From Cellulosimicrobium cellulans (GTDB lineage Bacteria; Actinomycetota; Actinomycetes; Actinomycetales; Cellulomonadaceae), in the NCBI RefSeq assembly GCF_006539945.1, contig NZ_BJNZ01000008.1, forward strand, positions 1 to 64,000: a DNA stretch of 64,000 nucleotides, given 5' to 3'. Numbering within the stretch: position 1 is the stretch's first letter; the number at the start of each line of letters is the position of its first letter. Below the pieces are notes generated by a model that worked only from the letters and a program-made list of their open reading frames with translations, made no database searches and was not told the DNA's origin. The position numbers were made by a program, and so were the translations under genes. Below are positions 15,983-50,127 of the stretch, in pieces.

Positions 15983-16735
15983 TCACCGCTCCTTCGCGTA
16001 CTGCTCCAGGACGTCGTCGAGCGGTCCGTCGGCGCGCAGCTCACCACCGCGCAGGTAGAGCCCGCGCGTGCAGAACCGCCGCAGGTCGTCGTTGTTGTGC
16101 GAGACGAGGAACAGGGTGCGCCCGGCGGAGAGCAGCTCGCCGATCCGCTGGTAGCACTTGTCGCGGAACGCCTTGTCCCCGACCGCGAGGACCTCGTCGA
16201 CGAGCAGGATGGGACCGTCGAGCTGCGAGACCACGGAGAAGGCGAGACGGACCTGCATGCCCGAGGAGTAGTGCCGGTACGGCGAGTCGAGGAACTTGTG
16301 GATCTCGGCGAAGTCGACGATCTCGTCGAAGCGCTCCTCGATCTCCTTCTTCGACATCCCATGCAGGCCCGCGGCGAGGTAGATGTTCTCCCGGCCCGTG
16401 AGGTCGGGGACGAACCCTCCCGTGATCTCGATGAGCGGGGACACGTCGGCCTTCACCGTGGCCCGGCCCTCGTCCGGCAGGAGGACGCCCGTGACGACCT
16501 TGAGGAGCGTCGACTTGCCCTGCCCGTTCCGCCCGATCACCCCGATCGCCTCGCCCGGCGAGACGTCGAACGAGACGTTGCGCAGCGCCCAGAACGAGTC
16601 GCGGGCCGGGCCCTTGTCACGACGCAGGATCATCTGCCGCAGGCCCGCGCTGCGGCGCCCGCGGTCGAACTGCACGCCGACGTCCTTCACCGAGATGATG
16701 GGGTCGGGCAGCCCGGTGAACGTGGTCGCCGCCAT
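15983..16735 (-). CDS. wzt: polysaccharide ABC exporter ATP-binding protein (Wzt/RfbE type)
   Basis: 250 aa. ABC domain of the polysaccharide or teichoic acid export class: Walker A GRNGQGKST near residue 67, a typical loop GGFVPDLTGRENIYLAAGLHGM, signature YSSGMQVRLAFSV, Walker B ILLVDEVLAVGD and switch LVSHNNDDLRRFC. It lacks the C-terminal carbohydrate-binding extension found in some Wzt proteins, so it resembles mycobacterial Rv3781-type ATPases. ATG lies within the stop of the permease gene (TGATG), with AAGGAG just upstream, so it is coupled to it. With Wzm it would flip a lipid-linked galactan across the membrane. Confidence 0.92.
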   Translation of the reverse strand: MAATTFTGLPDPIISVKDVGVQFDRGRRSAGLRQMILRRDKGPARDSFWALRNVSFDVSPGEAIGVIGRNGQGKSTLLKVVTGVLLPDEGRATVKADVSPLIEITGGFVPDLTGRENIYLAAGLHGMSKKEIEERFDEIVDFAEIHKFLDSPYRHYSSGMQVRLAFSVVSQLDGPILLVDEVLAVGDKAFRDKCYQRIGELLSAGRTLFLVSHNNDDLRRFCTRGLYLRGGELRADGPLDDVLEQYAKER

Positions 16736-17553
16736 CACAGCTCCTTCAGCATGGAACGCTCGGTCCGCGCGAAGACGATCCAGCCGAGCACGAGGGTGAA
16801 CACCGAGACCCCGCCGGCGATCGCGATCGCGTCCCAGTGCACGGCGTCGGGGAAGAACCCCGCCCGGAACGCCGTGATGATCCCGCTCATGGGGTTGAGC
16901 AGGTACAGCGTCTTGAGGACCTGCGGGATGTTCGCGTTGTACACGTCCTGGATCCCGTACAGCACGGGCGACGCGTAGAAGAGCACGCGCATCGCGACCC
17001 GGATGAGCGGCTCGATGTCGCGCAGGAGCACCTGGAGCGGCGCCAGGAGCAGACCGACCCCGGCGAGCAGGACGAGCTGCATGAGGATCGCCACCGGGAA
17101 GAGCCAGATGTGGCCGTTGATCTCCGGCTGGAAGATGAGGAGGAACACCGCGAGCACCGGCATCGAGAACCCGAACTCCACGGTCTTCGACATGACCACG
17201 CGCAACGGCCACACCTCGCGGGGCAGCCGCGTCGACCGCACGAGGCGGGAGTCGTGCTGGAGCGAGTTGGCGCTGTCGCCCACGCAGTTCTGGAACCACG
17301 TCCAGGGCAGCAGCGCGGCCAGCAGGAAGATGATGTAGGGCTCTTCCCCGACCGAGCGCGGGAAGATCTTGGTGAAGACGAACCAGTAGACGGCCGCCAT
17401 GAGCAACGGGTCGAGGATCGACCAGAAGTACCCGAGCAGCGAGTCCGCGTACCGGACCTTGAGGTCACGCCGGACCAGAAGACCCAGGACCGAACGGGCC
17501 CTCCACAGCGCCATCGGCCTGTTCACGGCCGCGACGACGCCTGTATCACTCAC
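16735..17553 (-). CDS. wzm: polysaccharide ABC exporter permease (Wzm/ABC-2 type)
   Basis: 272 aa with six predicted spans. ABC-2 features are visible: RRDLKVRYADSLLGYFWSILDPLLMAAVYWFVF near the N-terminus and LYGIQDVY, LNPMSGIITAFRAGFF near the C-terminus. It exports undecaprenyl-linked polysaccharide with Wzt. GTG 17553 is preceded by GGAGG with five bases spacing, better than the upstream in-frame start at 17598. It is 78 bases downstream of glfT2 on the same strand; the three genes look like one operon, as in the mycobacterial galactan locus. Confidence 0.92.
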   Translation of the reverse strand: MSDTGVVAAVNRPMALWRARSVLGLLVRRDLKVRYADSLLGYFWSILDPLLMAAVYWFVFTKIFPRSVGEEPYIIFLLAALLPWTWFQNCVGDSANSLQHDSRLVRSTRLPREVWPLRVVMSKTVEFGFSMPVLAVFLLIFQPEINGHIWLFPVAILMQLVLLAGVGLLLAPLQVLLRDIEPLIRVAMRVLFYASPVLYGIQDVYNANIPQVLKTLYLLNPMSGIITAFRAGFFPDAVHWDAIAIAGGVSVFTLVLGWIVFARTERSMLKEL

Positions 17554-17631
17554 TTGTTCCTCCACGCGCTGGACGCCTCGCACCCGAGGCCGTCGCACAC
17601 CCTACCGTCGCGGGAACCCGCGGACGGACGG

Positions 17632-19485
17632 TCAGTCGTCGCCATCGGTGATCCCGATCGTCGCGCGCCAGGCCGAGGGGGCGACGAGCGCGGACGCCTG
17701 GTCACGGTACGCCTTCTGCACCTCGGGCCAGCGCCGCTTGAGCTCGCGGTGCAGCGCGAGCGACTCCCGCCAGAGCGCGACGAACGCCTTGCGGTCTCGC
17801 ACGTACCAGTTCCCCGTGCGGTCCTCGCCGGCCAGGACGAGCACGCTGTCGTACCGCGGCAGCTCCCACCAGACCCCCTGGCCCCGCTCGAGCTGGGCGT
17901 CAGGGCGGCTCCGCTTCTCGGGGCGCACGGGGACGAGGAGCTGACGCGCGACGGAGCGCAGCGTGAAGACCGCGAGCGCCGCACCTCGGGGACCGTGCTT
18001 CCGGGCGGTGGGCGGCACGTCCCTGCGGGCCGGCACCGGGGCCGGGGCGTCGACGGTGTAGCTCCGGGCCTCGCCGAACTCCTTGGCCAGCGCCCGCAGC
18101 TCGCCGAGCCGCGTCCCCATCGTCGCGTGGAGCTCGCCCGGACCCTTCAGCACGTCGCGGAGAGCCGCGTTGCGGAGCGTCACGGCGTAGTACTGCATCG
18201 AGAGGAGGTGCTTGAGGTTGAGCCGGCTGCTGTCCGCGAGCAGCGCGCCGCCGTGCTCCTCTCCCGAGTGGATCAGGCCCGAGACCACGCGGTTGCGGGC
18301 GTGGAAGTACGCCTGCCAGTCGATCGCGTCGTCCTTGTCCTGCCACGTGATGTGCCACAGCGCGACGCCGGGGAGCGAGACCGTCGGGACGCCGGCCGCC
18401 TTGGCGCGCAGCCCGTACTCCGCGTCGTCCCACTTGATGAAGTACGGCATCGACAGCCCGATCTCACGGACGACCGCCGTCGGGACCAGGCACATCCACC
18501 AGCCGTTGTAGTCGGCGCGCGGCCTGCGGTGCAGCCAGCGCGTCGCGCGCAGGGACTCGTCCGAGAAGTCGACGAGACGGTGGTCGGGGTCCGCGGGGCC
18601 CCACATGAAGTTGGACTGCTGCACGATCTCGCTCACCGCGTGCAGGTTGGTGGGGCGGTACATGTCGAACATGTGGCCGCCGACGATGGTGGGCCGCGAG
18701 CAGGCGTCCGCGAAGCGCACGGCACGAAAGATGCTCTCCGGCTCGACCGCGACGTCGTCGTCGAGGAGCATGACGTGCGTGGAACCGAGCGCGACCGCCT
18801 CGAGCATGCCGCGCGAGAAGCCGCCCGAGCCGCCGAGGTTGGGCTGGTCCACGATCTTCAGGCGGTCCCCGAGGCCCTCGCGTGCCTCCTCGAAGCCCGG
18901 CTCCGCCGCGACCTTCTGGGTGCCCTGGTCCACGACGACGACCCGGTCGAGCACCTGGCGCACGTCGTCGTCCGTGCCCAGGGCCCGTAGCGTCCGCACG
19001 CAGTAGTCGGGCTTGTTGAAGGTCGTCACGGCCACGGTCACCGTGCCGTCCGCCGCGGGCCCGTCCACCTCCCAGCGGCCGGGGCCGATCTCGACGTCGG
19101 TCGACGCGGTGATCTCGAACCAGCACCAGCCACCGTCGGCCGCGCCCGCCGTGGCCACGTCGAGCCGGACGGTCTCCTCGCCGTCGAACCGGACCGCCTC
19201 GAGCCGCGTGGCGTGCCCGCGGGCGTCCGTGCGCACGAGGCGGACCTGCCCGCGTCCGGCCAGCTCGATCTCCAGCGTCACGGACGTCACCGTGGTGTTC
19301 GCCGCCCAGTGCATCAGGGGGAAGGCGTTGAAGTAGGAGGCGAACGAGACGTCGCTCCCGGCGACGAGACGGGCCGTGCGGCGCGAGACGACGTCGATCG
19401 ACGACGTCGCCCCACGAGGGCTCTCGACGTACAACGGGAGCTTGTCCAGATCCGTGGGGTAGACGACGTGCTGGACGGTGATCAC
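17632..19485 (-). CDS. glfT2: galactofuranosyltransferase GlfT2 family
   Basis: 617 aa, close to mycobacterial GlfT2 (about 637). It uses UDP-galactofuranose to extend a galactan chain on a lipid carrier at the inner face of the membrane. The order of parts matches: N-terminal beta domain (DVSFASYFNAFPLMHW), GT-A domain with TFNKPDYCV, NLGGSGGFSRGM and a DDD metal site near residue 238, then YNGWWMCLVP, FIKWDDAEYGLRAKAAG and WQDKDDAIDWQAYFH, and the helical C-terminal domain (ALWRESLALHRELKRRW). These motifs are nearly identical to what I recall of the mycobacterial enzyme. The start GTG 19485 aligns with its N-terminus; a longer frame to 19542 exists. Confidence 0.93.
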   Translation of the reverse strand: MITVQHVVYPTDLDKLPLYVESPRGATSSIDVVSRRTARLVAGSDVSFASYFNAFPLMHWAANTTVTSVTLEIELAGRGQVRLVRTDARGHATRLEAVRFDGEETVRLDVATAGAADGGWCWFEITASTDVEIGPGRWEVDGPAADGTVTVAVTTFNKPDYCVRTLRALGTDDDVRQVLDRVVVVDQGTQKVAAEPGFEEAREGLGDRLKIVDQPNLGGSGGFSRGMLEAVALGSTHVMLLDDDVAVEPESIFRAVRFADACSRPTIVGGHMFDMYRPTNLHAVSEIVQQSNFMWGPADPDHRLVDFSDESLRATRWLHRRPRADYNGWWMCLVPTAVVREIGLSMPYFIKWDDAEYGLRAKAAGVPTVSLPGVALWHITWQDKDDAIDWQAYFHARNRVVSGLIHSGEEHGGALLADSSRLNLKHLLSMQYYAVTLRNAALRDVLKGPGELHATMGTRLGELRALAKEFGEARSYTVDAPAPVPARRDVPPTARKHGPRGAALAVFTLRSVARQLLVPVRPEKRSRPDAQLERGQGVWWELPRYDSVLVLAGEDRTGNWYVRDRKAFVALWRESLALHRELKRRWPEVQKAYRDQASALVAPSAWRATIGITDGDD

Positions 19486-19754
19486 GGTGGGCGCCTCGCA
19501 GGATGGGTCGAAGATCCGGACGGCCGAAGACGTGCGCAGCACCCGCTGAGGCGGCGCGTCGGCTCGATGCCACAGGCTACCGGGCAGACCGTTCGGGACG
19601 GGCGAAATCGGCGCGGTTCACAGAATGTGCAGATCGCGTTCACGAACACGTCGGTGGCGGGTCCGTCGCACGACGCTGACGTAAACTCGGGTCGGCCCGG
19701 GGCGGTTCTGCCGTACCCGCGGCACTCGTCGAGACCCCGATCCGAAGGGCACCC

Positions 19755-21329
19755 ATGCCGCGTCGTCCTGCCACGACGTCCCGCGAGCTGCGAGCGAGCC
19801 GCACCCTCCTCCGTCTGCCCGCGCGCGTCCCGGACCACGTCTCCTCCCTGGACGTCCTCGTCAACGGCCACCGGGTGTGGTCGATCGACCTCGTGTCCGA
19901 CGAGTCGCTCCACGAGGCCCTCGACCACCGGTGGCCCGCGCCGATCACGCCGTTCCTCGAGGGGACGGCCCGCATCGACGTCGCCGACTCCACGACGGGT
20001 GACGTCCTGTGGAGCACGTCCGTCCGGTTCGGCCGGAGCGACCAGCCGGTGGAGGTCGTGGACGCCCTGGGACGCCACGTCGCGCTCAACAAGTGGGGCC
20101 GGCTCGGCAAGACGTTCGACGGCGCGGACGAGGGCTTGCAGCAGCGCCTGCTCGACCGGCTGGACGTGCTCGTCGAGCTCCTGCACGAGCTCGGTCTGCG
20201 GCCGTTCGTGGTCGGCGGCACGTTGCTCGGCGCCGTCCGCTCGGGCCACATCCTCCCGCACGACGACGACGCCGATCTCGCCTACCTGTCGGAGCTGAGC
20301 CACCCCGCGGACCTCTCCCTGGAGAACGCCCGGATCGCGACCGACCTCACGTCGCGCGGGTACGAGGTCGTCCGCCACAGCAACGCGCACCTGCAGATCA
20401 CGTTCCGCCGCGACGACGGGCTCGTCGACGGCTACATCGACATTTTCACGGCGTTCTTCACGCCGGACGGCCAGATCAATCAGCCGTTCCACGTGCGCGG
20501 GCCGATGCGTCAGGACTCGATGCTGCCGTTCTCCACCGTCACGCTCGAGGGGCGCGACTATCCGGCGCCTGCCGTCCCGGAGGACTGGCTCGTCGTCAAC
20601 TACGACGAGAACTGGCGCACGCCCCTCCCGGGCTACAAGCTCCGGACCCCGCGCGCGACCGCCCGACGCTTCCGCAACTGGTTCGGCTCGTACAACTTCC
20701 AGCGCGACTTCTGGGAGGACCGCTACCTCTACGACCCGACGAGCGCGAGCGGCACGGACCTACGCGGTGCGGACGCCCTGCTCGCCCGCACGGACGACGG
20801 CGACATGGTGGTCGACCTGGGGTGCGGGGCCGGCGCGGCGGCACGGCACCTGGCCGCGCACGGTCGTCGGGTCGTCGGCGTCGACTACGCCGAGTCCGCG
20901 CTGCTGCGCGCCCGCGGCCTCACCGAGGGCGCCGCGGCGGAACGGGTCACGTGGCTGCGCCGCAACCTCATCGACTTCCGCGAGGCCGCGGACGTGATCG
21001 CCCTCCTCGCCGAGGAGGAGGGGCGTGTCCACGTGCTCGCCAACCACCTGCTGGAACGCCTCGGCCACCACGGCCGGGCCACCGTCTGGCGTACCCTGCG
21101 TCAGTACGCCCAGGCCGGGAGCGTCGTGGCCCTCGTCGTCGACACGGTGCCCGACCCCGAGGTGACGTTCCGCGACCCGACGACGTGGCACCTCACGCTC
21201 GACGAGATCGAGCAGGAGCTCGCGCCCCTGGGCCTGTCCCTCCACGGCACCACACCCCTGCGCGGGACCGCACGTGACAGCGTCCGGCAGCCCGTGCTCA
21301 CGTACCTGACCACCGCAGCCCAGAGCTGA
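19755..21329 (+). CDS. LicD-family transferase fused to SAM methyltransferase
   Basis: 524 aa with three parts. Residues 1-110 form an unassigned beta-rich domain. Residues about 125-310 are LicD-like: VVGGTLLGAVRSGHILPHDDDADL (from about residue 154) has the nucleotidyltransferase-fold GG and acidic DDDAD signature, followed by GYIDIFTAFF and NWRTPLPGY. Residues about 330-520 are a class I SAM methyltransferase with DLGCGAGAAARHLA near 353 and VGVDYAESAL. LicD proteins move phosphocholine or similar phospho-groups from CDP carriers to glycans; a methyltransferase tail is unusual. It is divergent from glfT2 and leads two downstream genes. AAGG lies six bases before the ATG. Substrate unknown. 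Confidence 0.82.
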   Translation: MPRRPATTSRELRASRTLLRLPARVPDHVSSLDVLVNGHRVWSIDLVSDESLHEALDHRWPAPITPFLEGTARIDVADSTTGDVLWSTSVRFGRSDQPVEVVDALGRHVALNKWGRLGKTFDGADEGLQQRLLDRLDVLVELLHELGLRPFVVGGTLLGAVRSGHILPHDDDADLAYLSELSHPADLSLENARIATDLTSRGYEVVRHSNAHLQITFRRDDGLVDGYIDIFTAFFTPDGQINQPFHVRGPMRQDSMLPFSTVTLEGRDYPAPAVPEDWLVVNYDENWRTPLPGYKLRTPRATARRFRNWFGSYNFQRDFWEDRYLYDPTSASGTDLRGADALLARTDDGDMVVDLGCGAGAAARHLAAHGRRVVGVDYAESALLRARGLTEGAAAERVTWLRRNLIDFREAADVIALLAEEEGRVHVLANHLLERLGHHGRATVWRTLRQYAQAGSVVALVVDTVPDPEVTFRDPTTWHLTLDEIEQELAPLGLSLHGTTPLRGTARDSVRQPVLTYLTTAAQS

Positions 21330-21341
21330 GACGAGGACGAC

Positions 21342-21575
21342 ATGAAGCAGAAGATCATCGCCGTCGGCGACCGTGTGGCGCCTTCCCTCATGGCACGGCT
21401 GCGCGGCAAGCCTCGGCCGAACCACGCGCAGGTGCTCGAGGAGCTGGCCCAGCTGCGCGAGGACGTGCGCGACCTGCGCGCGGAGATCGACGAGTGCCGC
21501 CGGGACAACGTCCGCATCGCCGAGCTGACCGACATCGTCGAGACGCGGCTCGCCGCACCTCGGTCGGTGGACTGA
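21342..21575 (+). CDS. short coiled-coil protein (DUF6752-like)
   Basis: 77 aa. A basic N-terminus (KQKIIAVGDRVAPSLMARLRGK) is followed by a heptad-like helix (VLEELAQLREDVRDLRAEIDECR) and the tail NVRIAELTDIVETRL. The ECRR-N-RIAELTD pattern resembles small actinobacterial DUF6752 proteins from memory; no function is known for these. It lies 12 bases after the LicD-methyltransferase gene and 50 before a glycosyltransferase, with GAGGA upstream of ATG, so it is translated as part of that operon. It may be a scaffold or oligomerisation partner; this is a guess from position and shape. Confidence 0.7.
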   Translation: MKQKIIAVGDRVAPSLMARLRGKPRPNHAQVLEELAQLREDVRDLRAEIDECRRDNVRIAELTDIVETRLAAPRSVD

Positions 21576-21625
21576 CCGACCCGCGCCGCCCCGGCCCCGA
21601 CCTCGACGGAACAGCGAGCACCCCC

Positions 21626-22555
21626 ATGACCCAGACCCCCCACGTGGCAGCCGTCGTCGTGACGTTCAACCGTCTCGAGAAGCTCAAGAAGGGCATCGCC
21701 GCGATCCGCGCGTCGAGCGTCCCCCCGCAGACGATCCTGCTCGTCGACAACGACTCCACGGACGGCACGGGCGACTACCTGCGCACCATCGCGGACGACG
21801 ACGACATCCACGTCCTGTCGCTGCCGAAGAACGTCGGAGGCGCCGGCGGGTTCGCCGCCGGCCTGCGCCGCGCCCACGAGCTCGGGGCGGACTTCTTCTG
21901 GATCATGGACGACGACTGCTACCCGGAGCCGGACGCGCTCGAGCGGCTCCTCGACGAGCACCGCGCGGTCGAGGAGCACGTCCACGACCGCGTGCCCTTC
22001 GCGTGCTCCGTCGTCAAGTTCGTCGACGGTCAGCTGTGCGAGATGAACGAGGCCGTGACCACGTGGGACTGGCCGCGCTACCTCGTCCAGGGCCTGAACG
22101 CGGTCAAGGTCCGCGAGTGCACGTTCGTCTCCGTCCTGCTGCCCCGGTGGACGGTCGAGGAGCACGGGCTGCCCCTGGCCGAGTACTTCATCTGGTACGA
22201 CGACAAGGAGTACACGAAGCGCCTGTCGGGGCGCACGCGTCCCGGCATCCAGGTGCTCGACAGCTACGTCGTGCACGACATGGGTGACAACAAGGGCGTC
22301 AACTACGGCCAGATCACCGCGCAGAACGTCTGGAAGTTCAAGTACGGCGCCCGCAACCAGTCGTCGTACCGCTGGCACTACGAGGGCAAGCTCTCGTGGA
22401 TCACCTACGTGAAGAACGTGGTCGGCAAGATGCGCCAGGGCGGGGTCTCCCGCAGCCTCCAGCTCCAGATGGTCCGGCAGCTCCTCGCCGGCATCCGGTT
22501 CAACCCGCAGCCCCAGTTCCCCCGGACGTCGCCGAAGGCGCCGAGCGCGGGCTGA
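21626..22555 (+). CDS. GT2 glycosyltransferase (GlfT1-like)
   Basis: 309 aa GT-A enzyme. It begins VAAVVVTFNRLEKLKKGI, has LLVDNDSTDGTGDYL, the glycine-rich NVGGAGGFAAGL, the metal-binding FWIMDDDCYPEPDAL, an acceptor-side segment (YFIWYDDKEYTKRL) and a C-terminal helical part with membrane-associating basic and aromatic residues. The overall pattern is that of mycobacterial GlfT1 (first galactofuranosyl additions) and WcaA-like rhamnosyl enzymes; which sugar it moves is not certain. Third gene of the LicD operon, ended by a 17-bp hairpin. Its ribosome site is weak. Confidence 0.85.
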   Translation: MTQTPHVAAVVVTFNRLEKLKKGIAAIRASSVPPQTILLVDNDSTDGTGDYLRTIADDDDIHVLSLPKNVGGAGGFAAGLRRAHELGADFFWIMDDDCYPEPDALERLLDEHRAVEEHVHDRVPFACSVVKFVDGQLCEMNEAVTTWDWPRYLVQGLNAVKVRECTFVSVLLPRWTVEEHGLPLAEYFIWYDDKEYTKRLSGRTRPGIQVLDSYVVHDMGDNKGVNYGQITAQNVWKFKYGARNQSSYRWHYEGKLSWITYVKNVVGKMRQGGVSRSLQLQMVRQLLAGIRFNPQPQFPRTSPKAPSAG

Positions 22556-22565
22556 CGCCGAGCGG

Positions 22566-22604
22566 ACGAAGGGCCGGTCTCCCGTGCGGAGACCGGCCCT
22601 TCGT
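22566..22604. terminator. bidirectional hairpin terminator
   Basis: Perfect 17-base arms (left arm 22566-22582, starting ACGAAGGGCC; right arm 22588-22604, ending CCCTTCGT) with the five-base loop CGTGC. It lies between the convergent GlfT1-like and LicC-like genes and can serve both. Confidence 0.88.
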
Positions 22605-22634
22605 GCGTCCTGGGACGGACCTCGCAGACGGTCC

Positions 22635-23333
22635 TCAGAGGAACTCGTTCGCCCGCTCGAGGTCCTCGGCGAAGTCCACCTCGACGGCGTACAGGTCGGA
22701 GACGTCGACGGGGACCACCTGGAGCCCGTCCTTCTCGATCGCGACCTCGATGCCGCGCTCGAAGTAGTCCTGGTCGCCGACCTCGGCGAGCCGCGTCACG
22801 AGCGCAGGCTTGTCGGCAGGGGCGACGAAGTTGATACCGACCGCCTCGCCGAGCGCCCCCTGGACGGTCTTCGAGAGCTCGTCGATCCGGCCGTCGGCGT
22901 CGACGGTGTACTTGACCTCCTCGTCGCCGACCGCCGCGGTGTTGACGCTGACGAACGACTGCCCGGACTCGATGTACGGCTTGAGCCGCTCGAGGACGCG
23001 CGGGTCGAAGACGACGTCGCCGTTCATCCACAGGACGCCCCGGTCCCCGGTGGCTCGCAGCGCCTTGAGCAGGCTCTTGGACGTGTTCGTCTGGTCGTAG
23101 ATCTCGTTGTACGCGAACGTCACGTCGGGCGCGGCCTCGAGGATCTGCTCGAGCTTGAACCCGACCACGACGAGCACCTGGACGTCGCGGCCGAAGGCGC
23201 CGCGGACGTTGCCCAGCTGCTGGGCGAGGATCGTGCGCCCGTCCTTCAGCTCGGTCAGCGGCTTGGGGAACGGCCGTCCGAGGCGGGTCCCCATCCCGGC
23301 GGCCAGGATGACGACCTGGGGCGCGTTGCTCAC
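22635..23333 (-). CDS. LicC-like sugar/choline-phosphate nucleotidyltransferase
   Basis: 232 aa Rossmann-like NTP transferase. The N-terminal signature is VVILAAGMGTRLGRPFPKPL; further on are FAYNEIYDQTNTSKSLLKAL and GDVVFDPRVL, then EVDFAEDLERA at the C-terminus. This set (ND/NE-Y, TN-SL, EVD-DLE) is typical of the phosphocholine cytidylyltransferase-like family rather than of RmlA. It probably makes a CDP- or NDP-activated alcohol or sugar. Its place next to the LicD fusion suggests that it makes the donor. No choline kinase or transporter (licA, licB) is in the window, so choline itself is not shown. GTG start, AAAGGA upstream. Confidence 0.78.
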   Translation of the reverse strand: MSNAPQVVILAAGMGTRLGRPFPKPLTELKDGRTILAQQLGNVRGAFGRDVQVLVVVGFKLEQILEAAPDVTFAYNEIYDQTNTSKSLLKALRATGDRGVLWMNGDVVFDPRVLERLKPYIESGQSFVSVNTAAVGDEEVKYTVDADGRIDELSKTVQGALGEAVGINFVAPADKPALVTRLAEVGDQDYFERGIEVAIEKDGLQVVPVDVSDLYAVEVDFAEDLERANEFL

Positions 23334-36358: not shown

Positions 36359-37567
<1,209 letters not shown>

Positions 37568-39614: not shown

Positions 39615-39825
39615 AACGCCTCCTGCAGTCGTCCGGACGTGTACCCGTCCGGGTGGGGTCCCTCGAGCCGCTCGCTCCGGGCAAACTCGCGCAGCGTACC
39701 AACCGACTGTGGCCGTCCGGTGGACGGGTTGCGTCCGTCGGAGGTCGCGGCGTGAACACCTCGAGGGTCGTGCCGTGCGAGCGCATGCTGGCGATAGAGC
39801 CCTCGGAACGGCCCGGGCGCTCGGA

Positions 39826-39831
39826 TAGAGT
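39826..39831 (+). promoter_or_regulatory. -10 box of pseI, leaderless type (TAGAGT)
   Basis: TAGAGT is followed by seven bases and the ATG at 39839. There is no purine-rich ribosome site between them. Confidence 0.55.
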
Positions 39832-39838
39832 CTGCCCC

Positions 39839-40903
39839 ATGCCCACCACGCCTTCGCGGAGCCTCACCGTCGCCCAGCACCAGATCGGGGAGGAGCACCG
39901 TCCGTTCGTCGTCGCCGAGATGTCGGGAAACCACAACGGCGACCTCGGGCGCGCCCTCGCCATCGTCGACATGATCGCCGAGAGCGGCGCCCAGTCCGTC
40001 AAGCTGCAGACGTACCGCGCCGACACCATCACGATCGACGCGGACGGTCCGTCGTTCCGCGTGAGCGAGGGTCACGAGCTGTGGGGTGGGAAGAACCTCT
40101 ACCAGCTGTACGAGGAGGCGCACACCCCGTGGGAGTGGCACGCACCGATCTTCGAGCGTGCGCGCGAGCACGGCCTCGTGCCGTTCTCCAGCCCGTTCGA
40201 CGACACGGCGGTCGACCTTCTCGAGGACCTGGACGCGCCCCTGTACAAGATCGCCTCGCTGGAGATCGGTGACATCCCCCTCCTGCGCCGCGTGGCCCGG
40301 ACCGGCAAGCCGGTCGTCCTGTCGACCGGCGCGGCGAACATCTCCGACGTCGACCTCGCCGTGCGCACGATCCGCGGCGAGGGCAACGACCAGATCGTCG
40401 TGCTGGGTTGCACGTCGTCCTACCCGGCGTCGCCCGCCGAGTCGAACCTGCGCACGATTCCCGTCCTGCGCGACACGTTCGACGTCGTCGCGGGCCTGTC
40501 CGACCACACGATGGGGATCGGGGTGGCTGTCGCGTCGGTCGCGCTCGGCGCGGCCGTCATCGAGAAGCACGTCACGCTCTCCCGGGCCGACGGCGGCGTG
40601 GACTCGGACTTCTCGCTCGAGCCTCATGAGCTCGCTGCGCTCGCCGCGGAGACGGAGCGTGCCTGGCTCGCCCTCGGCTCCGTCCACGTGGGCCCGACGG
40701 CCGGCGAGGCAGAGAGCCGCCGTCTGCGCCGCTCCCTCTTCGTGGTCGAGGACGTGCGTGCCGGCGACGAGGTCACTCCGGCGAACGTCCGGTCCATCCG
40801 CCCGGCGGGCGGCCTCGAGCCGGTGCACCTCGACACGGTCCTGGGCCGGACGTTCAGCACGGACGTCGTACGCGGGACGCCGCTCACGTGGGACCTCGTC
40901 TGA
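39839..40903 (+). CDS. pseI: pseudaminic acid synthase (NeuB family)
   Basis: 354 aa enzyme that condenses a 6-deoxy-diacetamido hexose with phosphoenolpyruvate to make a nine-carbon nonulosonic acid. NeuB-type motifs are PFVVAEMSGNHNGDLGRA, SVKLQTYRADT, KIASLEIGDIPLL, GCTSSYPASPAESNL, GLSDHTMGIG and EKHVTLSR. The C-terminal 65 residues form an SAF (antifreeze-like) domain with VVEDVRAGDEVT. Assignment to the Pse branch rests on the neighbours PseB, PseC, PseG and PseH; legionaminic acid synthase is the alternative. It converges on the pseG-pseH gene across a hairpin. Confidence 0.88.
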   Translation: MPTTPSRSLTVAQHQIGEEHRPFVVAEMSGNHNGDLGRALAIVDMIAESGAQSVKLQTYRADTITIDADGPSFRVSEGHELWGGKNLYQLYEEAHTPWEWHAPIFERAREHGLVPFSSPFDDTAVDLLEDLDAPLYKIASLEIGDIPLLRRVARTGKPVVLSTGAANISDVDLAVRTIRGEGNDQIVVLGCTSSYPASPAESNLRTIPVLRDTFDVVAGLSDHTMGIGVAVASVALGAAVIEKHVTLSRADGGVDSDFSLEPHELAALAAETERAWLALGSVHVGPTAGEAESRRLRRSLFVVEDVRAGDEVTPANVRSIRPAGGLEPVHLDTVLGRTFSTDVVRGTPLTWDLV

Positions 40904-40924
40904 GCAGACCCGTCAACCCCTGCC

Positions 40925-40962
40925 GAGAGCGGGCGCCGTCCAGCCGGACGACGCCCGCTCTC
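40925..40962. terminator. hairpin terminator between pseI and pseGH
   Basis: Eleven-base arms GAGAGCGGGCG / CGCCCGCTCTC with an inner CGTC/GACG stem. The right arm runs into the stop codon of the convergent pseG-pseH gene. Confidence 0.75.
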
Positions 40963-42442
40963 AGCGTCTCCGGTCCTTGACGAGCACGTCGAAGTCACCG
41001 TCCCTGCGGTCCGGGACGTGCGCGTAGCCGGCCCGCACGAACAGGCGCTGCGACGGCGCGTTGTCGGGCAGGATCGCGGCGACGAGCGTCGCGGCGGGCT
41101 CCTCGGCGGCGAACACGTCCTCCGCCACCGCGAGCACCCCTCCCGCCAACCCATGCCCCCGGGCCTCCGGGGACAGGGTGATGGAGACCTCCCACTCCCC
41201 CTCCTCCCGCCGGTCGAATCGCACGGTCCCCACCCGGACGTCGCCGTGCTCGACGACGTAGAGCCGACGGCCCGGATCGTCGAGCACCTGGGCCAGCCAC
41301 TCCCGGTGGGAGCGCCACGGGACGGGTTCCGAGGAACGGGACACCGCCCGCACCGAGGGGTCGTTGCGCCAGCGCAGGAGCACCAGCGCGTCGTCGCCCG
41401 TGGCACGCCTGGCGACCAGCCCGCCCGGCGAGAGTCCCTCGGTGCGCGACCGGAAGGCGTCGTCCCATGCGACGACGATCCTCGCGGCACCACCACCGTC
41501 GACGCCGTCGGGGCGCTCGAAGCTCCGGAGGTCGTCGAGCATGCGCTCGAGGCGCTCCGCCCCGTCCGCGACGTCCTTGCGCAGCTCGGCGAGCGTGCCG
41601 AGTCCCAGCGCGAACCCCCTCGCGACGGCCGCCTCGTAGCCCGGGACCTGGTTGTCCACGACTGCGACCAGGACGGTGGGGACGCCGACGCACGCGAGCT
41701 CCCACGCCGTCGTGCCCGCTGCGCTCAGGACCAGGTCCATGTCTCCGGCGAGATCCAGGACTCCGGGGAACGGCTCACGGAGGTCGACGTCGTCGCCCGC
41801 CGCTGCCCGCACGTCGGCCCATCGACCGTGGGGCGCGACCACGACGAGCTCGCCGACACCCCGCGTCGCTCGCGCGACCCCGGCGAGGACCGCGGCTGCG
41901 CCGACCGCGTCCGTGCCGCCCGCCACGACCAGGCAGCGCAGCGGCTCGGCCGGGTCGCGGGGGGCCCGGTCCGCCCGCCGTCCGCGCGCGCGCAGCACCG
42001 CGTCGCGCATCGGCGCGAAGTCGATCCCGCGCAGGACGCGGCCGGAACCGTCGTCGGGTCGTGCCGAGTCCTCCGCGCCGAGCGTCGAGTCCACGACGAC
42101 GTCCGCCGGTCGACGACCGAAGGTCCCGTCCTCCATCGACGACAGCAGGGCGCCGGCCCGGCCGAGATCGACGCGCGCGCCCGGTCCGACCGCATAGTCG
42201 TCCACGTGGACGAGGACCGCCCCCTGCTCGGCGGCGAGGACCGCCAGGCCCTCGGCGGGGACGTCGACGCGCTCCACCCCCGCCTCTCGCACGAGGTCGT
42301 GCCCCAGCGGCGAGCTCACCTCGCCCGCGAGCGAGACGCTCCACCCGGCGCGCCGGGCCGCGCGCGCCACGGCGAGAGCGCGGACCAGGTGACCGACGCC
42401 GCCCTCGGGCGTGGCGTCGCACCGCAGCAGCGCGTGGCTCAT
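40961..42442 (-). CDS. pseG-pseH: PseG hydrolase fused to PseH acetyltransferase
   Basis: 493 aa bifunctional protein. Residues 1-340 match PseG/SpsG, the GT-B-like hydrolase that removes UDP from UDP-2,4-diacetamido-trideoxy-altrose: LRCDATPEGGVGHLVRALAVA, VHVDDYAVGP, CLVVAGGTDAVG and AAGTTAWELACVGVPTVLV. Residues about 347-493 are a GNAT N-acetyltransferase like PseH, which acetylates the 4-amino group: LVARRATGDDALVLLRWRN and LSPEARGHGLAGGVLA for acetyl-CoA binding. Fusions of these two are known elsewhere. ATG overlaps the stop of the cytidylyltransferase gene by 4 bp. Confidence 0.9.
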   Translation of the reverse strand: MSHALLRCDATPEGGVGHLVRALAVARAARRAGWSVSLAGEVSSPLGHDLVREAGVERVDVPAEGLAVLAAEQGAVLVHVDDYAVGPGARVDLGRAGALLSSMEDGTFGRRPADVVVDSTLGAEDSARPDDGSGRVLRGIDFAPMRDAVLRARGRRADRAPRDPAEPLRCLVVAGGTDAVGAAAVLAGVARATRGVGELVVVAPHGRWADVRAAAGDDVDLREPFPGVLDLAGDMDLVLSAAGTTAWELACVGVPTVLVAVVDNQVPGYEAAVARGFALGLGTLAELRKDVADGAERLERMLDDLRSFERPDGVDGGGAARIVVAWDDAFRSRTEGLSPGGLVARRATGDDALVLLRWRNDPSVRAVSRSSEPVPWRSHREWLAQVLDDPGRRLYVVEHGDVRVGTVRFDRREEGEWEVSITLSPEARGHGLAGGVLAVAEDVFAAEEPAATLVAAILPDNAPSQRLFVRAGYAHVPDRRDGDFDVLVKDRRR

Positions 42443-43182
42443 CCGTCCGTCAGCGCCTTCTGCCGGACCGACGCGTTCGTCGCCACGACGTCCGGGTTCG
42501 CACGCAGGACGTCGACGACCTCCTGCCACCGGGGCGGTGCGTCGCCGAGCCGGTCGACGACCGCCTCGATCGCTGCCGCGTCCTCCGGAGTGTCGAGCGT
42601 CACGCGCAGGTCGTTCGCGGCCGGCGCCACCACGATCCCCAACCGCCGGAACTCGCGGTCCGCGGCATAGAGGTAGGACGTCACGTGGACCCGGTGGTGG
42701 TCGCGCGCCTCGGCGTCCGCGGCTCGCAGGGCGTCGCGGGACGCCAGCTCGACGTCGAGACCGCGCGGCAGCGTGCGCTGGAGCGTGGTCGCCACGTAGT
42801 CGAGCGTCGGGTCGGCCCGCCACAGCGCGACGACCTGGGAGACGAGCACGGGGTCGGCGAGCGGGCAGTCGGCGGTCAGTCGGACGATCGCGTCGGCCCC
42901 CGTCTCCTCGAGCGCCAGGACGAAGCGCGAGAGCACGTCGTCCTCGCTCCCGCGGACCACCCGGACGCCCGACGATCCGGCGAGCTCGGCGACGGCGTCG
43001 TCCCCGGGCGCCGTGGAGGTGGCGACCACCACCTCGTCGACGCCTCGGGCGGCCGAGGCCGCCCGGATCATCCACGCGAGGACGGGCCGACCAGCGAGCG
43101 GCCGCAGGACCTTGCCGGGCAGACGGGACGACCCCGTCCGGGCCTGGATCACGGCGACTACCTTCAGAGGGGTCTCATGCAC
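42439..43182 (-). CDS. SpsF-type cytidylyltransferase (CMP-nonulosonate synthase role)
   Basis: 247 aa. Opening VVAVIQARTGSSRLPGKVLRPLAGRPVLAWMI, then VVATSTAPGDDAVAEL and RLTADCPLADPVLV are the pattern of SpsF/COG1861 nucleotidyltransferases. In this cluster it occupies the place of PseF, which activates pseudaminic acid with CTP, as SpsF does in the Bacillus spore-coat sps operon. GTG 43182 lies right before the conserved strand. Longer starts such as ATG 43200 are possible. A CATTAT box is six bases before this GTG. It overlaps pseG-pseH by 4 bp. Confidence 0.82.
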   Translation of the reverse strand: MHETPLKVVAVIQARTGSSRLPGKVLRPLAGRPVLAWMIRAASAARGVDEVVVATSTAPGDDAVAELAGSSGVRVVRGSEDDVLSRFVLALEETGADAIVRLTADCPLADPVLVSQVVALWRADPTLDYVATTLQRTLPRGLDVELASRDALRAADAEARDHHRVHVTSYLYAADREFRRLGIVVAPAANDLRVTLDTPEDAAAIEAVVDRLGDAPPRWQEVVDVLRANPDVVATNASVRQKALTDG

Positions 43183-43261
43183 CGTGCCATAATGCTCCAT
43201 GCGTTCGGCCGCGGCGAAGCCGGTCCGGCGAGAATCCTCCGACTGACGGGAAGAGTTCCGT

Positions 43262-44242
43262 ATGTCCATGCTCACTGGCGCATCGATCCTCGTGACGGGC
43301 GGCACCGGCTCGTTCGGCAAGGCGTTCCTGCGCGAGGTGCTCGACAATCACGATCCGCGCCGCATCGTCGTCTTCAGCCGCGACGAGCTCAAGCAGTTCG
43401 AGGTCCGGGCACAGTTCGGCGACGACCCTCGCCTGCGCTGGTTCATCGGCGACGTGCGCGACCGCCGCCGCCTCGAGCGGGCGATGCACGGTGTCGACTA
43501 CGTGGTCCACGCGGCGGCCCTCAAGCAGGTCGACACCGCGGAGTACAACCCGTTCGAGTACATCGCGACCAACGTCACCGGCTCCCAGAACGTGGTCGAG
43601 GCCGCGATCGACGCCGGCGTGAAGAAGGTCGTCGCGCTGTCGACCGACAAGGCGTCCAGCCCGATCAACCTCTACGGCGCGACCAAGCTCTGCGCGGACC
43701 GCCTGTTCGTCAGCGCGAACAACTACGCGGCCGCCTACGAGACCCGCTTCTGCGTGGTCCGGTACGGCAACGTCATGGGCTCCCGCGGGAGCGTCGTGCC
43801 GAAGTTCAAGGCCCTCGCCGAGGCGGGCGAGTCGCTGCCGATCACGGACAAGCGCATGACGCGCTTCTGGATCACGCTGCCCCAGGCCGTCAAGTTCGTG
43901 CTCGACTCCTTCGAGATGATGGAGGGCGGCGAGCTTTACGTCCCTCGTATCCCGAGCATGAAGGTCGTCGACCTCGCGGAGGCGATCGCGCCGGGCGCCG
44001 CGCAGCACGAGGTCGGGATCCGGCCCGGCGAGAAGCTCCACGAGGAGATGATCGCGCCGGACGACTCCCGACGGACCGTGCGTCTCGGCGACCGCTACGT
44101 GGTCATGCCGTACGTGGGCGGCTGGGGCTACGAGACACCGGCCGACGGCGAGCCGGTGGCCGACGGGTTCGCCTACCAGTCCGACACGAACGACCAGTGG
44201 CTCTCCGTGGAGGACATCCGCGAGCTCCTCGAGCTGTCGTGA
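43262..44242 (+). CDS. pseB: UDP-N-acetylglucosamine 4,6-dehydratase (inverting)
   Basis: 326 aa SDR enzyme, first step of pseudaminic acid synthesis from UDP-GlcNAc. It has ILVTGGTGSFGKAFLREVL for NADP binding, VVFSRDELKQFEV, GDVRDRRRLERAMHGVDYVVHAAALKQVDTAEYNPFE, STDKASSPINLYGATK with the active-site residues near 137, RYGNVMGSRGSVVPKF and MTRFWITLPQA. These are PseB/FlaA1 features with high similarity to the family. Divergent from the cytidylyltransferase gene, 79 bases apart. Coupled to pseC by a GTGA overlap. Confidence 0.95.
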   Translation: MSMLTGASILVTGGTGSFGKAFLREVLDNHDPRRIVVFSRDELKQFEVRAQFGDDPRLRWFIGDVRDRRRLERAMHGVDYVVHAAALKQVDTAEYNPFEYIATNVTGSQNVVEAAIDAGVKKVVALSTDKASSPINLYGATKLCADRLFVSANNYAAAYETRFCVVRYGNVMGSRGSVVPKFKALAEAGESLPITDKRMTRFWITLPQAVKFVLDSFEMMEGGELYVPRIPSMKVVDLAEAIAPGAAQHEVGIRPGEKLHEEMIAPDDSRRTVRLGDRYVVMPYVGGWGYETPADGEPVADGFAYQSDTNDQWLSVEDIRELLELS

Positions 44243-45387
44243 GCGCGGAGCCGATGCTGCCCTACGGTCGGCAGTCGATCGACGAGACCGACGTCGAGGC
44301 CGCGGTCGCCGCGCTGCGCAGCGAGTGGCTGACCACCGGGCCCGAGGTCGAGCGGTTCGAGGCCGCCGTCGCGGCCCGCGCCGGCGTCCCGCACGCGGTC
44401 TCCGTGACCTCGGGCACCGCCGCGCTGCACGTCGCGTACGCGGCCACGGAGGTCGGCCCGGGTGACGAGGTCGTGACGACGCCGCTGACCTTCGTCGCGA
44501 CGGCGGCCGCGGCCGCGCTGCAGGGCGCGACGGTCGTCTTCGCGGACGTCGACCCCGGGACGGGCAACCTCGACCCCCGCGCGGCCGAAGCCGCGGTGAC
44601 GGAGCGCACGCGCGTCGTCACGGGCGTCGACTACGCGGGCGTACCGGTGGACGCGGCCGCGTTCCGCGACCTCGCCGACCGCAAGGGCCTGCTGTTCCTC
44701 GAGGACGCGGCCCACTCGATCGGATCGACGCTCGACGGCCACCCGGTGGGCTCTCTCGCCGACCTCACGACGTACTCGTTCTTCCCGACGAAGAACCTCA
44801 CGACGGCCGAGGGCGGTGCCGTCGTGACGGCGGACGACGGGCTCGCCGCACGGGCGCGATCCTTCAAGAACCATGGTCTGGTGCGCGACCGCGCAGCCCA
44901 GCGATACCCCGACGAAGGCCCGTGGCACCAGGAGGTGCACGCGTTCGGCCTCAACTACCGGCTGCCCGACGTGCTCGCCGCGGTGGGCACGAGCCAGCTC
45001 GCGCGCCTCGACGCGTTCGTCGCGCGCCGCGCCGAGGTCAAGGCCGCGTACGACGAGGCGTTCCGCGACCTCGACGAGGTGGAGCTCCCGGTCCGACCGG
45101 AGGGCGCCGCGCCCGCGTGGCACCTGTACCCGCTGCGCGTTCCCGCCGACCGTCGCCGGGCGATCTTCGAGTCGCTGCGTGCGCAGGGCGTCGGGGTCCA
45201 GGTCAACTACATCCCCGCCTACTGGCACCCGGTGTTCGAGGACCTCGGCTACCGGCGCGGCCAGTGCCCCGTCGCCGAGGACTACTACCGGCGCGAGATC
45301 TCGCTCCCGATGTTCCCGGGCCTGACGGACGCCGACGTCGAGCGTGTCGTCCACGCCACGCGGCACGCACTCGCCACCGCGCGGTGA
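44239..45387 (+). CDS. pseC: UDP-4-amino-4,6-dideoxy-AltNAc transaminase
   Basis: 382 aa PLP enzyme of the DegT/DnrJ/EryC1/StrS family; it aminates the 4-keto sugar made by PseB. Visible are MLPYGRQSIDETDVEAAVAALRSEWLTTGP, SGTAALHVAY, TTPLTFVATAAAAALQGA, FLEDAAHSIGS with the cofactor Asp, and FFPTKNLTTAEGG with the Lys near residue 186. The opening YGRQSI-E-D and late VQVNYIPAYWHPVF agree with PseC. GTG start overlaps the pseB stop, and the gene in turn overlaps wzx by 4 bp. Confidence 0.93.
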   Translation: MSAEPMLPYGRQSIDETDVEAAVAALRSEWLTTGPEVERFEAAVAARAGVPHAVSVTSGTAALHVAYAATEVGPGDEVVTTPLTFVATAAAAALQGATVVFADVDPGTGNLDPRAAEAAVTERTRVVTGVDYAGVPVDAAAFRDLADRKGLLFLEDAAHSIGSTLDGHPVGSLADLTTYSFFPTKNLTTAEGGAVVTADDGLAARARSFKNHGLVRDRAAQRYPDEGPWHQEVHAFGLNYRLPDVLAAVGTSQLARLDAFVARRAEVKAAYDEAFRDLDEVELPVRPEGAAPAWHLYPLRVPADRRRAIFESLRAQGVGVQVNYIPAYWHPVFEDLGYRRGQCPVAEDYYRREISLPMFPGLTDADVERVVHATRHALATAR

Positions 45388-46826
45388 CCACGGGGCACGA
45401 CGGCACGGGCGTCGAGCCCGCGGCCGGGCCGACGGGCGACAGCCCTCGCCGAGTCGCGTCGCGCGCGGCGATCTACACCGCCGGGAGCGCGGCCCCGGCC
45501 CTCGCCTCGCTGGTCGTCATCCCCCTCATCACGCGTCTGCTCTCGCAGCGCGAGTACGACGTCGTCGCGCTCGGGACGGTCGTCGTGCAGGTGGGCGTCA
45601 TCCTCGTCGCCCTCGGGATGGGGGCCGCGATCACCCGCGAGTACATCCTCGGTGAGGCGGGTGCCCGCGGTGCCCGGGGACTGGTCGTCCAGTCCTCGCT
45701 CATCAGCGTCCTCATCGCGGGGCTCGCGCTCGCGCTCGGTCCCGTGTGGGGTCCGGCCCTGCTGGGCCGGCCCTGGGACGCCGCGCTCGCCCTCGCCGTC
45801 GTCGCGTCGCTCGGTGGCGGCATCGTGATCGTCGTCCAGGCCTACCTGCGCGGCGCGGAGCGCCCGGTGCCCTTCGTGCTCCTCGCCGCCGGGGGGACAC
45901 TCGTCGGCCCGGCCGTGGGCCTCGTGATCGTCCTCCTGGGACAGCGCACGGGCACGGCGTACCTTGCCGCGCTCGCCGCGGGCTACGTGCTCTCGGCGCT
46001 GGCCGGCGTGTGGGTGACGCTGCGGTCGGGCCCCCGCGACACGAGCTGGGCCGGCCTGCGGCGCGCGCTACGCCTCGGAGCCCCGACGGTGCCGCACCAG
46101 ATCGCCATCTACGTCGCGATCGCGGGCCTGGTGGTCGTCGCGGACCGCCTGCTCGACGCGGGCGGCACGGCCAACATCGTCCTCACGCTCGGTGCGGGGG
46201 CGACGGTGCTCACGGGTGCGCTGAACAACGCCTGGGCCCCGCTCATCTACAAGGAGCCGCCCGCGACGCGCCACGCGCGCCTCACGAGCACCACGCGCGT
46301 GATCCTCCGCGTCGTCGGCGCCCTCGTCGCCGCGGTCTGCCTCGCGGCGCCCCTGCTCGTCCAGATCGCGTCACCGCCGACGTACGACCACGAGGCGATG
46401 GTGCCCGCCGTGGTCCTCGCGTCGTTCTCCGCCGTCGCCTCCGTCTACTACCTCGCGAGCAGCCACCTCATCCTCGTGCGCGGACGGACAGGCGTGCTGT
46501 CGGTCTCCACGCCGGCCGCCGTCGGGCTCGGCATCGTCGCGGCGGTGCTCACCGCGCCGGTGTGGGGGCTCGTGGCGATCGGGGCGTCGTATGCCGTGAT
46601 GTACGTGCTCCTCGCGCTGTTCACGACCGTCGCGCAGGCCGTCCTCGTGGACCGCCCGTGGCGACCGCCGCTCGCTCCGATCACGCTCGTCGTCGTGCTC
46701 GCGTGCGCCGCGGCGGCGATCCTGCTGCCGACGACGACCGGGTGGTGGACCGTGCTCCGCGCGGCGGTCGCGCTGCTCGCCGCAGCGGTCCTCCTCGCAC
46801 CGCTGCGCACCGCACTCCGACGATAG
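45384..46826 (+). CDS. wzx: Wzx-type oligosaccharide flippase
   Basis: 480 aa MOP-superfamily membrane protein with about 12 to 14 helices after a 35-residue polar N-terminus. Family features include an early AAIYTAGSAAPALASLVVIPLITRLLSQREYDVVAL segment and mid-protein RLGAPTVPHQIAIYVA, where lineage-specific charged residues line the channel. It would move an undecaprenyl-linked unit, probably one that carries pseudaminic acid, to the outside. GTG overlaps the pseC stop. Its stop codon directly abuts the stop of the convergent next gene. Confidence 0.9.
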   Translation: MTTGHDGTGVEPAAGPTGDSPRRVASRAAIYTAGSAAPALASLVVIPLITRLLSQREYDVVALGTVVVQVGVILVALGMGAAITREYILGEAGARGARGLVVQSSLISVLIAGLALALGPVWGPALLGRPWDAALALAVVASLGGGIVIVVQAYLRGAERPVPFVLLAAGGTLVGPAVGLVIVLLGQRTGTAYLAALAAGYVLSALAGVWVTLRSGPRDTSWAGLRRALRLGAPTVPHQIAIYVAIAGLVVVADRLLDAGGTANIVLTLGAGATVLTGALNNAWAPLIYKEPPATRHARLTSTTRVILRVVGALVAAVCLAAPLLVQIASPPTYDHEAMVPAVVLASFSAVASVYYLASSHLILVRGRTGVLSVSTPAAVGLGIVAAVLTAPVWGLVAIGASYAVMYVLLALFTTVAQAVLVDRPWRPPLAPITLVVVLACAAAAILLPTTTGWWTVLRAAVALLAAAVLLAPLRTALRR

Positions 46827-47888: not shown

Positions 47889-48058
47889 CCAGCCTCTCCG
47901 GTTCCGGGCACGCGTCGACGTACGCGCCGACGGACGGGGCGCGTCTCCCGAGCAGCTCCCGGACGACGCGCGCCCAGCATACCGACCGTCCTGCGTGCGG
48001 GGTGCGGCCCCCTGACGCCGTGCCTAGCCTGGCTGGAGGAAGAGGGAGGTCGGTGCAC

Positions 48059-50083: not shown

Positions 50084-50086
50084 CCA

Positions 50087-50124
50087 CCGGGCAGGGGACG
50101 CCGGCGACGGCGCCCCCTGCCCGG
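50087..50124. terminator. hairpin terminator between SpoIID-type and amidase genes
   Basis: Eleven-base arms CCGGGCAGGGG / CCCCTGCCCGG, with a GC-rich 16-base loop, fill most of the 44-base gap between the two convergent genes. Confidence 0.8.
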
Positions 50125-50127
50125 AGC

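Follow-up and report, generated by a model that had tools for sequence, protein, structure and literature searches.

Gene content of the locus

The subject of this study is a gene for a LicD-methyltransferase fusion protein (LicD-MT) on a stretch of 64,000 nucleotides, hereafter the window, from Cellulosimicrobium cellulans (contig NZ_BJNZ01000008.1; genome of 4.6 Mb in 62 contigs). An earlier reading of the letters alone, here called the sequence-only reading, had described a fusion of 524 residues near a LicC-like nucleotidyltransferase (NTase) in a galactan locus. Both genes were recovered, together with a small open reading frame (ORF) that had not been listed. The following features were assigned:

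19755–21329, plus strand: LicD-MT, 524 amino acids, ATG start (ORF, Pfam, AlphaFold models with Foldseek, alignment)
21342–21575, plus strand: small partner of 77 amino acids, predicted coiled coil (homologues across loci, heptad periodicity in the alignment)
21626–22555, plus strand: GT2 glycosyltransferase, GlfT1-like (74.7 bits, under the equivalog cut-off of 330)
22571–22599, no strand: perfect 12-bp inverted repeat with a loop of 5, likely terminator (read from the sequence, between convergent genes)
22635–23333, minus strand: NTase of the LicC/IPCT superfamily (MobA-like NTP_transf_3), proposed CTP:polyol-phosphate cytidylyltransferase (PF12804, alignment, context)
17632–19494, minus strand: GlfT2-like polymerising galactofuranosyltransferase (start uncertain, the ORF opens at 19542)
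16735–17598, minus strand: Wzm-like ABC-2 permease (galactan permease model 72 bits, cut-off 380)
15983–16759, minus strand: Wzt-like ABC ATPase, ~258 amino acids (start uncertain; galactan ATPase model 172.6 bits, cut-off 400)
36359–37552, minus strand: UDP-galactopyranose mutase, Glf (ORF; as a query it matches the Pfam-called GLF proteins of loci L028 and L030)

LicD-MT is laid out as an N-terminal β-rich domain (residues ~12–110, weakly Fn3-like), a LicD domain (~128–300) and a class I S-adenosylmethionine (SAM) methyltransferase (~336–524). LicD PF04991 was matched over residues 145–176 with 26.4 bits (cut-off 22.6; 28.2 bits in the genome-wide search) and Methyltransf_25 PF13649 over residues 352–411 with 35.6 bits (cut-off 27). 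The protein contains GGTLLGAVR, HDDDAD and DLGCGAG. In an alignment with five named relatives (from Cellulosimicrobium funkei, C. cellulans, Aeromicrobium and two Leucobacter), GGTLLGxxR and HDDDAD were invariant, and motif I of the methyltransferase was kept as DLGxGxG, with the cysteine substituted in one Leucobacter. Judged from these matches, the LicD and methyltransferase domains are joined intact in one chain, as the sequence-only reading had stated, and the active-site residues looked for are present in both. Residues 1–130 gave no Pfam match; the models show a β-rich domain here, with a weak Fn3-like Foldseek match (3pe9, E 0.017). The top Foldseek matches of the full model were class I methyltransferases (best E 6.9e-9). 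No kinase was found among the 10 Pfam families, or among 25 of the 39 NCBIfam families, listed at E 0.1.

The ATG of the small ORF follows the LicD-MT stop codon after a gap of 12 bases. Counting this ORF, which stands before the glycosyltransferase gene, the NTase lies three genes from LicD-MT and not, as first described, two genes later. Loci L027, L030 and L083, C. funkei U11 (L026) and C. cellulans MP1 (L029) likewise have a GlfT1-like GT2 glycosyltransferase in this position, following LicD-MT and the small ORF. Of the terminator described before the NTase, the perfect inverted repeat is present; it has no T-run and is missing from the output of the terminator scan. The galactofuranosyltransferase and the exporter expected close by are located just upstream of LicD-MT, the former with two Pfam matches over cut-off (GlfT2_domain3 PF19320, 1.9e-35; Glft2_N PF17994, 9.5e-25). 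Glf is the presumed source of UDP-galactofuranose. The NTase is followed by a PMM/PGM gene (Pfam) and then by dTDP-rhamnose genes, the latter recognised by eye from their similarity. C. funkei and C. cellulans share the block GlfT2, Wzm, Wzt, LicD-MT, small ORF, GT2, NTase and PMM, and the 77-residue ORF is therefore not a chance reading frame.

Distribution of the fusion and its small partner

Full-length relatives of LicD-MT were identified with a profile of its N-terminal and LicD parts (profile A2). Of the 396 order genomes, 12 had such a relative at E < 1e-50 and 22 had a match at E <= 1e-8. The corresponding numbers for the 394 class genomes were 23, three of which belong to the order set as well, and 28. 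Within the genus, 3 of 17 genomes gave strong matches, and the remaining matches span the methyltransferase part only. Forty stretches were taken, 35 of which, together with the window and the five named loci, yielded 44 LicD-MT ORFs in 41 loci; an NTase locus (L093) and four stretches with weak LicD matches (L118–L121) were left out of the LicD-MT counts. We distinguish a nearer set of 17 loci (the window, the five named loci and 11 of the order) from a wider-class set of 24. Gene calls by GC-frame greedy picks are crude, and counts were taken instead from tblastn or hidden Markov model matches. The pattern of methyltransferase motif I was matched in 40 of the 44 ORFs (not in L098, L100, L115 and L117), and in the wider class the LicD motif is altered, for example to YGTLLGAVR...HDSDAD.

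A homologue of the small ORF, searched for with alignment-based models, was present in the locus for each of the 44 LicD-MT ORFs. In 32 cases it lies directly downstream on the same strand. Three homologues are fused in frame to LicD-MT (L091 and L092, which belong to one genus, and L102), four lie ~1 kb downstream, three ~1 kb upstream and one is convergent. The remaining one is shared, as the second LicD-MT copy in L083 has the partner of the first copy in common with it. This locus (L083:5103–13656) contains GlfT2, two LicD-MT copies, two GlfT1-like GT2 matches and a single coiled-coil ORF.

The small-ORF model started with 11 sequences and was later remade with 32 adjacent copies. Run on the 10,144 six-frame ORFs of the LicD-MT loci, it matched nothing beyond the partners at E < 1e-4. 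Because part of the model came from LicD-MT loci, a separate screen of 309 genomes of the order carries more weight. Six strong matches were obtained in this screen, all of them in LicD-MT carriers (the other six of the 12 carriers are not necessarily among the 309 genomes), and one weak match (7.7e-5) was located inside a frame of 678 residues.

In the aligned 36-residue core of the small protein, hydrophobic periodicity at the heptad angle was 0.369 compared with a shuffle mean of 0.156, a value equalled or passed by 153 of 20,000 column shuffles. The small partner is thus predicted to be a coiled coil. We regard this partner as the main new finding and as the strongest clue to the role of LicD-MT. 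Among the titles and abstract starts listed in searches of openly licensed papers, none describes the fusion or the partner. An N-terminal amphipathic helix of the small protein was also considered; hydrophobic-moment tests were inconsistent and the helix is not claimed.

The neighbours scanned in the wider-class loci included phospholipase-D-like, Mrp-like, TatA/B-like, MgtE-like and sulfotransferase-like proteins and unrelated enzymes. Proteins of 350–470 residues with an LPKTGTT-like motif cluster around LicD-MT (25 members in 12 loci, among them L094, L098, L100, L103, L106, L107, L110 and L112). Four members were scanned without a Pfam match, and the family profile gave no PDB match at E 0.01. 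These proteins are putatively sulfotransferase-like, by this motif.

The nucleotidyltransferase and the donor

The NTase falls into the LicC superfamily, as the sequence-only reading had recognised. PF12804 was matched with 67.4 bits (cut-off 27), and GxGTRLG, PKPL, NGD and VDF..DL are invariant in six aligned sequences, window included. With LicC, PntC, IPCT and CpgD (COG1213 type) the NTase shares NTP_transf_3, the GxGxR, PK and GD motifs and a phosphotransferase neighbour; it differs from them in that its substrate is not assignable. The residues R17, K24 and D106 are kept in the alignment and, by our own reading, would correspond to R16, K26 and D112 of IMPCT as given in PMC12275187. Since COG1213-type relatives act on phosphocholine, inositol phosphate, phosphoglutamine or phosphoglycerate (PMC12275187), the exact alcohol cannot be read from the sequence.

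At E <= 1e-20 the NTase was found in 71 of the 396 order genomes. It is present in 7 of the 12 LicD-MT carriers compared with 64 of the 384 others (p 0.0017; this and the following p value are Fisher values uncorrected for phylogeny, with the 396 genomes taken as the same draw across searches). Within the genus it occurs in 4 of 17 genomes, that is in all three with LicD-MT and in one of the 14 others. The co-occurrence looked for was therefore found. The specific tie to this NTase assumed in the sequence-only reading was not supported, as the two genes share a locus in only two of the 12 order carriers (G000 and G239). Altogether, NTase and LicD-MT stand in one locus in three genera. In G239, LicD-MT is contiguous with the small ORF and the NTase on one strand, and in G680 of the class set (L101:5352–8635) an EamA-type transporter, NTase, LicD-MT and the coiled-coil ORF follow each other in a row on one strand.

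Further contexts point to the kind of product made. In G001, a genome of the same genus with NTase and no LicD-MT, the NTase lies between two proteins of the CDP-glycerol glycerophosphotransferase family (PF04464), beside GlfT2 and Wzm/Wzt; TagD gave no match in this genome, and a single full-length IspD was found there. The PF04464–NTase arrangement recurs in G090 and G132, and in G011 and G016 the GlfT2/Wzm/Wzt locus holds PF04464 proteins and an extra IspD followed by a short-chain dehydrogenase (SDR), with no NTase in either genome. These contexts suggest that the NTase stands in for a CDP-polyol synthase.

GlfT2 and Wzm/Wzt loci within the same genus (L093, L184, L185 and the window) differ in their cassette, which is LicD-MT with NTase, PF04464 with NTase, or PF04464 with IspD and SDR. 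In 20 stretches around order NTases, Wzm-like and PF04464-like genes recur nearby.

A different cytidylyltransferase was more often adjacent to LicD-MT. The neighbour of LicD-MT at L084:11295–12713 combines IspD with an SDR, and its relatives are named IspD-SDR here. IspD-SDR was found in 8 of the 12 order carriers compared with 33 of the 384 others (p 2.5e-6), and in all eight it adjoins LicD-MT or the small partner. In Aeromicrobium a stand-alone IspD adjoins LicD-MT and matches the IspD-SDR type at 45% compared with 35% for the core IspD of the window genome; the type of the IspD in L083 is unclear. With cytidylyltransferase neighbours in many loci, the CDP-type donor of the sequence-only reading gains ground. 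A CDP-polyol is more likely than CDP-choline, because of the adjoining IspD-SDR in 8 of 12 carriers and because the NTase elsewhere stands by CDP-glycerol-type transferases. Bcs1 itself is presumably an IspD-SDR. In PMC10299916, Bcs1 makes CDP-ribitol, and PMC4873967 mentions ISPD homologues fused to reductases as well as bacterial ISPD-LicD fusions. CDP-ribitol would thus fit most other carriers of the order, in which IspD-SDR, with a make-up like that of the CDP-ribitol synthases Bcs1 and TarIJ, stands beside LicD-MT or its partner. The genome of the window differs from these systems, as it lacks IspD-SDR at E <= 1e-60 and has the NTase in its place.

Several candidate donors were set aside. 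CDP-ribitol as a simple answer in the organism itself is at odds with the missing IspD-SDR and with a single full-length IspD, other matches being partial or weak. For CDP-glycerol made by TagD, no TIGR01518 match over cut-off was obtained in the 17 genus genomes (sub-threshold matches in 10, none at all in G000 and G001), and as a CDP-glycerol polymerase partner the own genome offers one sub-threshold PF04464 match only. A phosphonate donor was considered in view of the phosphoenolpyruvate (PEP) mutase family; matches to this superfamily (PF13714) occur in all 17 genus genomes, with or without NTase, and show no tie to the NTase. The three of the own genome lie on other contigs, and the window has no PF13714 match. 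No ppm, lic or inositol genes were noticed at the locus.

A possible capping enzyme for a wall galactan

WbdD-type terminators join a methyltransferase, a phosphate-adding module and a coiled coil (PMC3482155, PMC11231755), and PMC11231755 names an extended coiled coil as a characteristic marker of this terminator assembly strategy. LicD-MT resembles WbdD of Escherichia coli O9a and Klebsiella O3 and ORF6 of Klebsiella O7 in that one chain would add a phosphate group and a methyl group, in its associated coiled coil and, in the window, in a polysaccharide locus with an ABC exporter and a polymerase gene near. It differs from them by a LicD domain in place of a kinase, by a coiled coil that is short and usually separate, and by its Gram-positive host. 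LicD-MT is not classed as WbdD, because no kinase was found and because Wzt is without a C-terminal module.

The LicD half resembles FKRP, fukutin and the bacterial LicD polyol- or choline-phosphate transferases by a GGxLLGxxR motif followed by DDD.D or D.D. FKRP, which is CDP-ribitol-dependent, was its best solved relative by profile (E 0.0013), and FKRP chains ranked first in Foldseek with the modelled N-terminal/LicD half (E 0.012–0.05, none below 0.001). As in these systems, a cytidylyltransferase gene stands alongside in many LicD-MT loci. Unlike them, LicD-MT is fused to a SAM methyltransferase and an N-terminal β-rich domain and is paired with a coiled-coil protein. With the mycobacterial galactan pathway the window has in common a GlfT2-like polymerase, a GlfT1-like GT2, Wzm/Wzt and Glf. 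It differs in that its GT2, Wzm and Wzt score under the NCBI equivalog cut-offs and in that LicD-MT, coiled coil and NTase are without counterpart in the mycobacterial pathway as presented in PMC10951656.

Because a methyltransferase, a phosphate-adding module and a coiled coil in an ABC-exporter locus make up the anatomy of WbdD-type terminators, we propose, at somewhat less than an even chance, that LicD-MT caps a wall polymer of galactofuranan type in two steps in the cytoplasm and works like the WbdD class. According to this proposal, the NTase would activate a small phosphorylated alcohol with CTP, a polyol phosphate (for example glycerol phosphate or a closely related compound) being the most likely candidate. 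The LicD domain would attach the phospho-alcohol of the CDP donor to the galactan while the chain is still lipid-linked and growing, probably at its non-reducing end or close to it, and the fused methyltransferase would then methylate the added group or its carrier sugar. The coiled-coil protein may hold LicD-MT as an oligomer, place it near the polymerase and the membrane, or both, so that only chains of sufficient length would be capped before export by Wzm/Wzt. A LicD phosphotransferase would thus occupy the place of the WbdD kinase, with the coiled coil usually on a separate polypeptide. A capped methylated polymer end had been one of two options in the sequence-only reading and is now favoured by the coiled-coil partner.

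More tentatively still, LicD-MT and its coiled-coil ruler or scaffold might form a Gram-positive chain-length terminator that caps the galactofuranan with a methylated phospho-polyol ahead of its ABC export, which would make it an actinobacterial counterpart of WbdD that arose by convergence; we hold this rather doubtful. What sets the length of wall galactan is an open question, for which the authors of PMC10951656, working on mycobacteria, propose contacts between GlfT2 and the exporter that they are still exploring. If a capping enzyme and a coiled coil set the length in other actinobacteria, this question could be tested directly by deleting two genes. Gram-positive wall polymers would then come under the terminator concept alongside Gram-negative O antigens, and the LicD phosphotransferase would join the known chain-ending chemistries.

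A number of results weigh against the capping proposal. The galactofuranan context of the sequence-only reading holds for the nearer set, where GlfT2, a Glf or a GlfT1-like GT2 was present in 11 of 17 loci and Wzm together with Wzt in 7 of 17. It is largely lost in the wider class. Here a galactan gene (GlfT2 or Glf) was found in 2 of 24 loci and was missing from the other 22, a complete Wzm/Wzt pair in one (in L098 a Wzm is accompanied by a Wzt that the stretch end truncates), the NTase in one and IspD-SDR in none; L098, L100 and L114 show weak NTP-transferase matches only. Of the 24, 21 were without any galactan, exporter, NTase or IspD-SDR neighbour at the thresholds used. In these loci either the module acts on another acceptor and has a broader role, or the acceptor is encoded elsewhere. 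No IspD- or NTase-type gene was found near LicD-MT in L028, L030 and L085, of which L030 is cut short by its contig. The enrichment of IspD-SDR and NTase is confounded by phylogeny, as the 12 carriers represent seven genera and the IspD-SDR carriers three. The test of the short coiled coil covered 36 aligned residues, heptad scores of single sequences are mostly weak and below significance alone, and the model behind the partner counts was partly built from the very loci later searched. The fold link to FKRP is weak by its E-values, yet its rank agrees with the profile search; the AlphaFold models are mediocre (pLDDT 68.7 and 66.3), and residues 273–322 are unreliable in both. Wzt, at ~258 residues with ABC_tran at 59–190 and nothing recognised beyond the ABC domain, has no room for a C-terminal carbohydrate-binding module, the module by which capped ends are read in the WbdD system. 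The galactan exported by mycobacteria is not known to carry a cap, and 'terminat' is absent as a word stem from the main text of PMC10951656.

The end of the chain is not the only conceivable site of modification. LicD-MT might place a methylated phospho-alcohol as decoration on galactan residues inside the chain or on branches, the coiled coil being a partner for oligomerisation or stability with no role in length, and we hold this possible, if on the unlikely side. The LicD enzymes of PMC4873967 decorate glycans with phosphocholine or ribitol phosphate; Wzt stops soon past its ABC domain, and the pair of LicD-MT and coiled coil is also found away from the export genes tested. On the other hand, the combination of methyltransferase, phosphate module and coiled coil, sometimes fused, typifies terminators and not the decorating LicD enzymes of the cited papers.

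It is improbable that the locus encodes a pathway of phosphocholine or phosphoethanolamine type, in which the NTase would be a true LicC, LicD would transfer an aminoalcohol phosphate and the methyltransferase would N-methylate it on the glycan. The membership of the NTase in the LicC superfamily would suit such a pathway, the gene row in G680 recalls licB-licC-licD, and the best Foldseek matches of the full LicD-MT model include N-methyltransferases such as MtfA. When PDB chains were ranked with the NTase profile, however, LicC (1jyk) came only twelfth (E 0.01, profile positions 3–86 only), which weakens the phosphocholine parallel drawn in the sequence-only reading. Among the 11 chains ranked higher were glucose-1-phosphate cytidylyltransferase, a nucleotidyltransferase-aminotransferase that we take to be PntC, inositol-1-phosphate cytidylyltransferase and several GlmU. 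No licA or licB was noticed around the window locus, a genome-wide search for the choline kinase LicA and the transporter LicB not having been made. The IspD-SDR neighbours and the NTases among PF04464 polyol-phosphate transferases in other genomes likewise argue against phosphocholine.

Equally improbable is an NTase independent of LicD-MT that serves a teichoic-type polymer of the convergent PMM/rhamnose side, the LicD-MT donor being made elsewhere: the two genes converge across the inverted repeat, the NTase occurs in the 64 order genomes without LicD-MT mentioned above and lies far from LicD-MT in five of the seven carriers that have it, but the contiguous same-strand runs in G239 and G680 and the distribution within the genus speak for a common role.

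Two further regions of the window were noted by eye. Positions 39653–46826 hold a nonulosonic-acid-like set (NeuB/PseI-like protein, PseB-like dehydratase, aminotransferase, cytidylyltransferase and flippase). Positions 47513–53046 encode two large proteins in which 'DGDG' segments recur; one of them has a SpoIID-like stretch and the other an amidase-like one.

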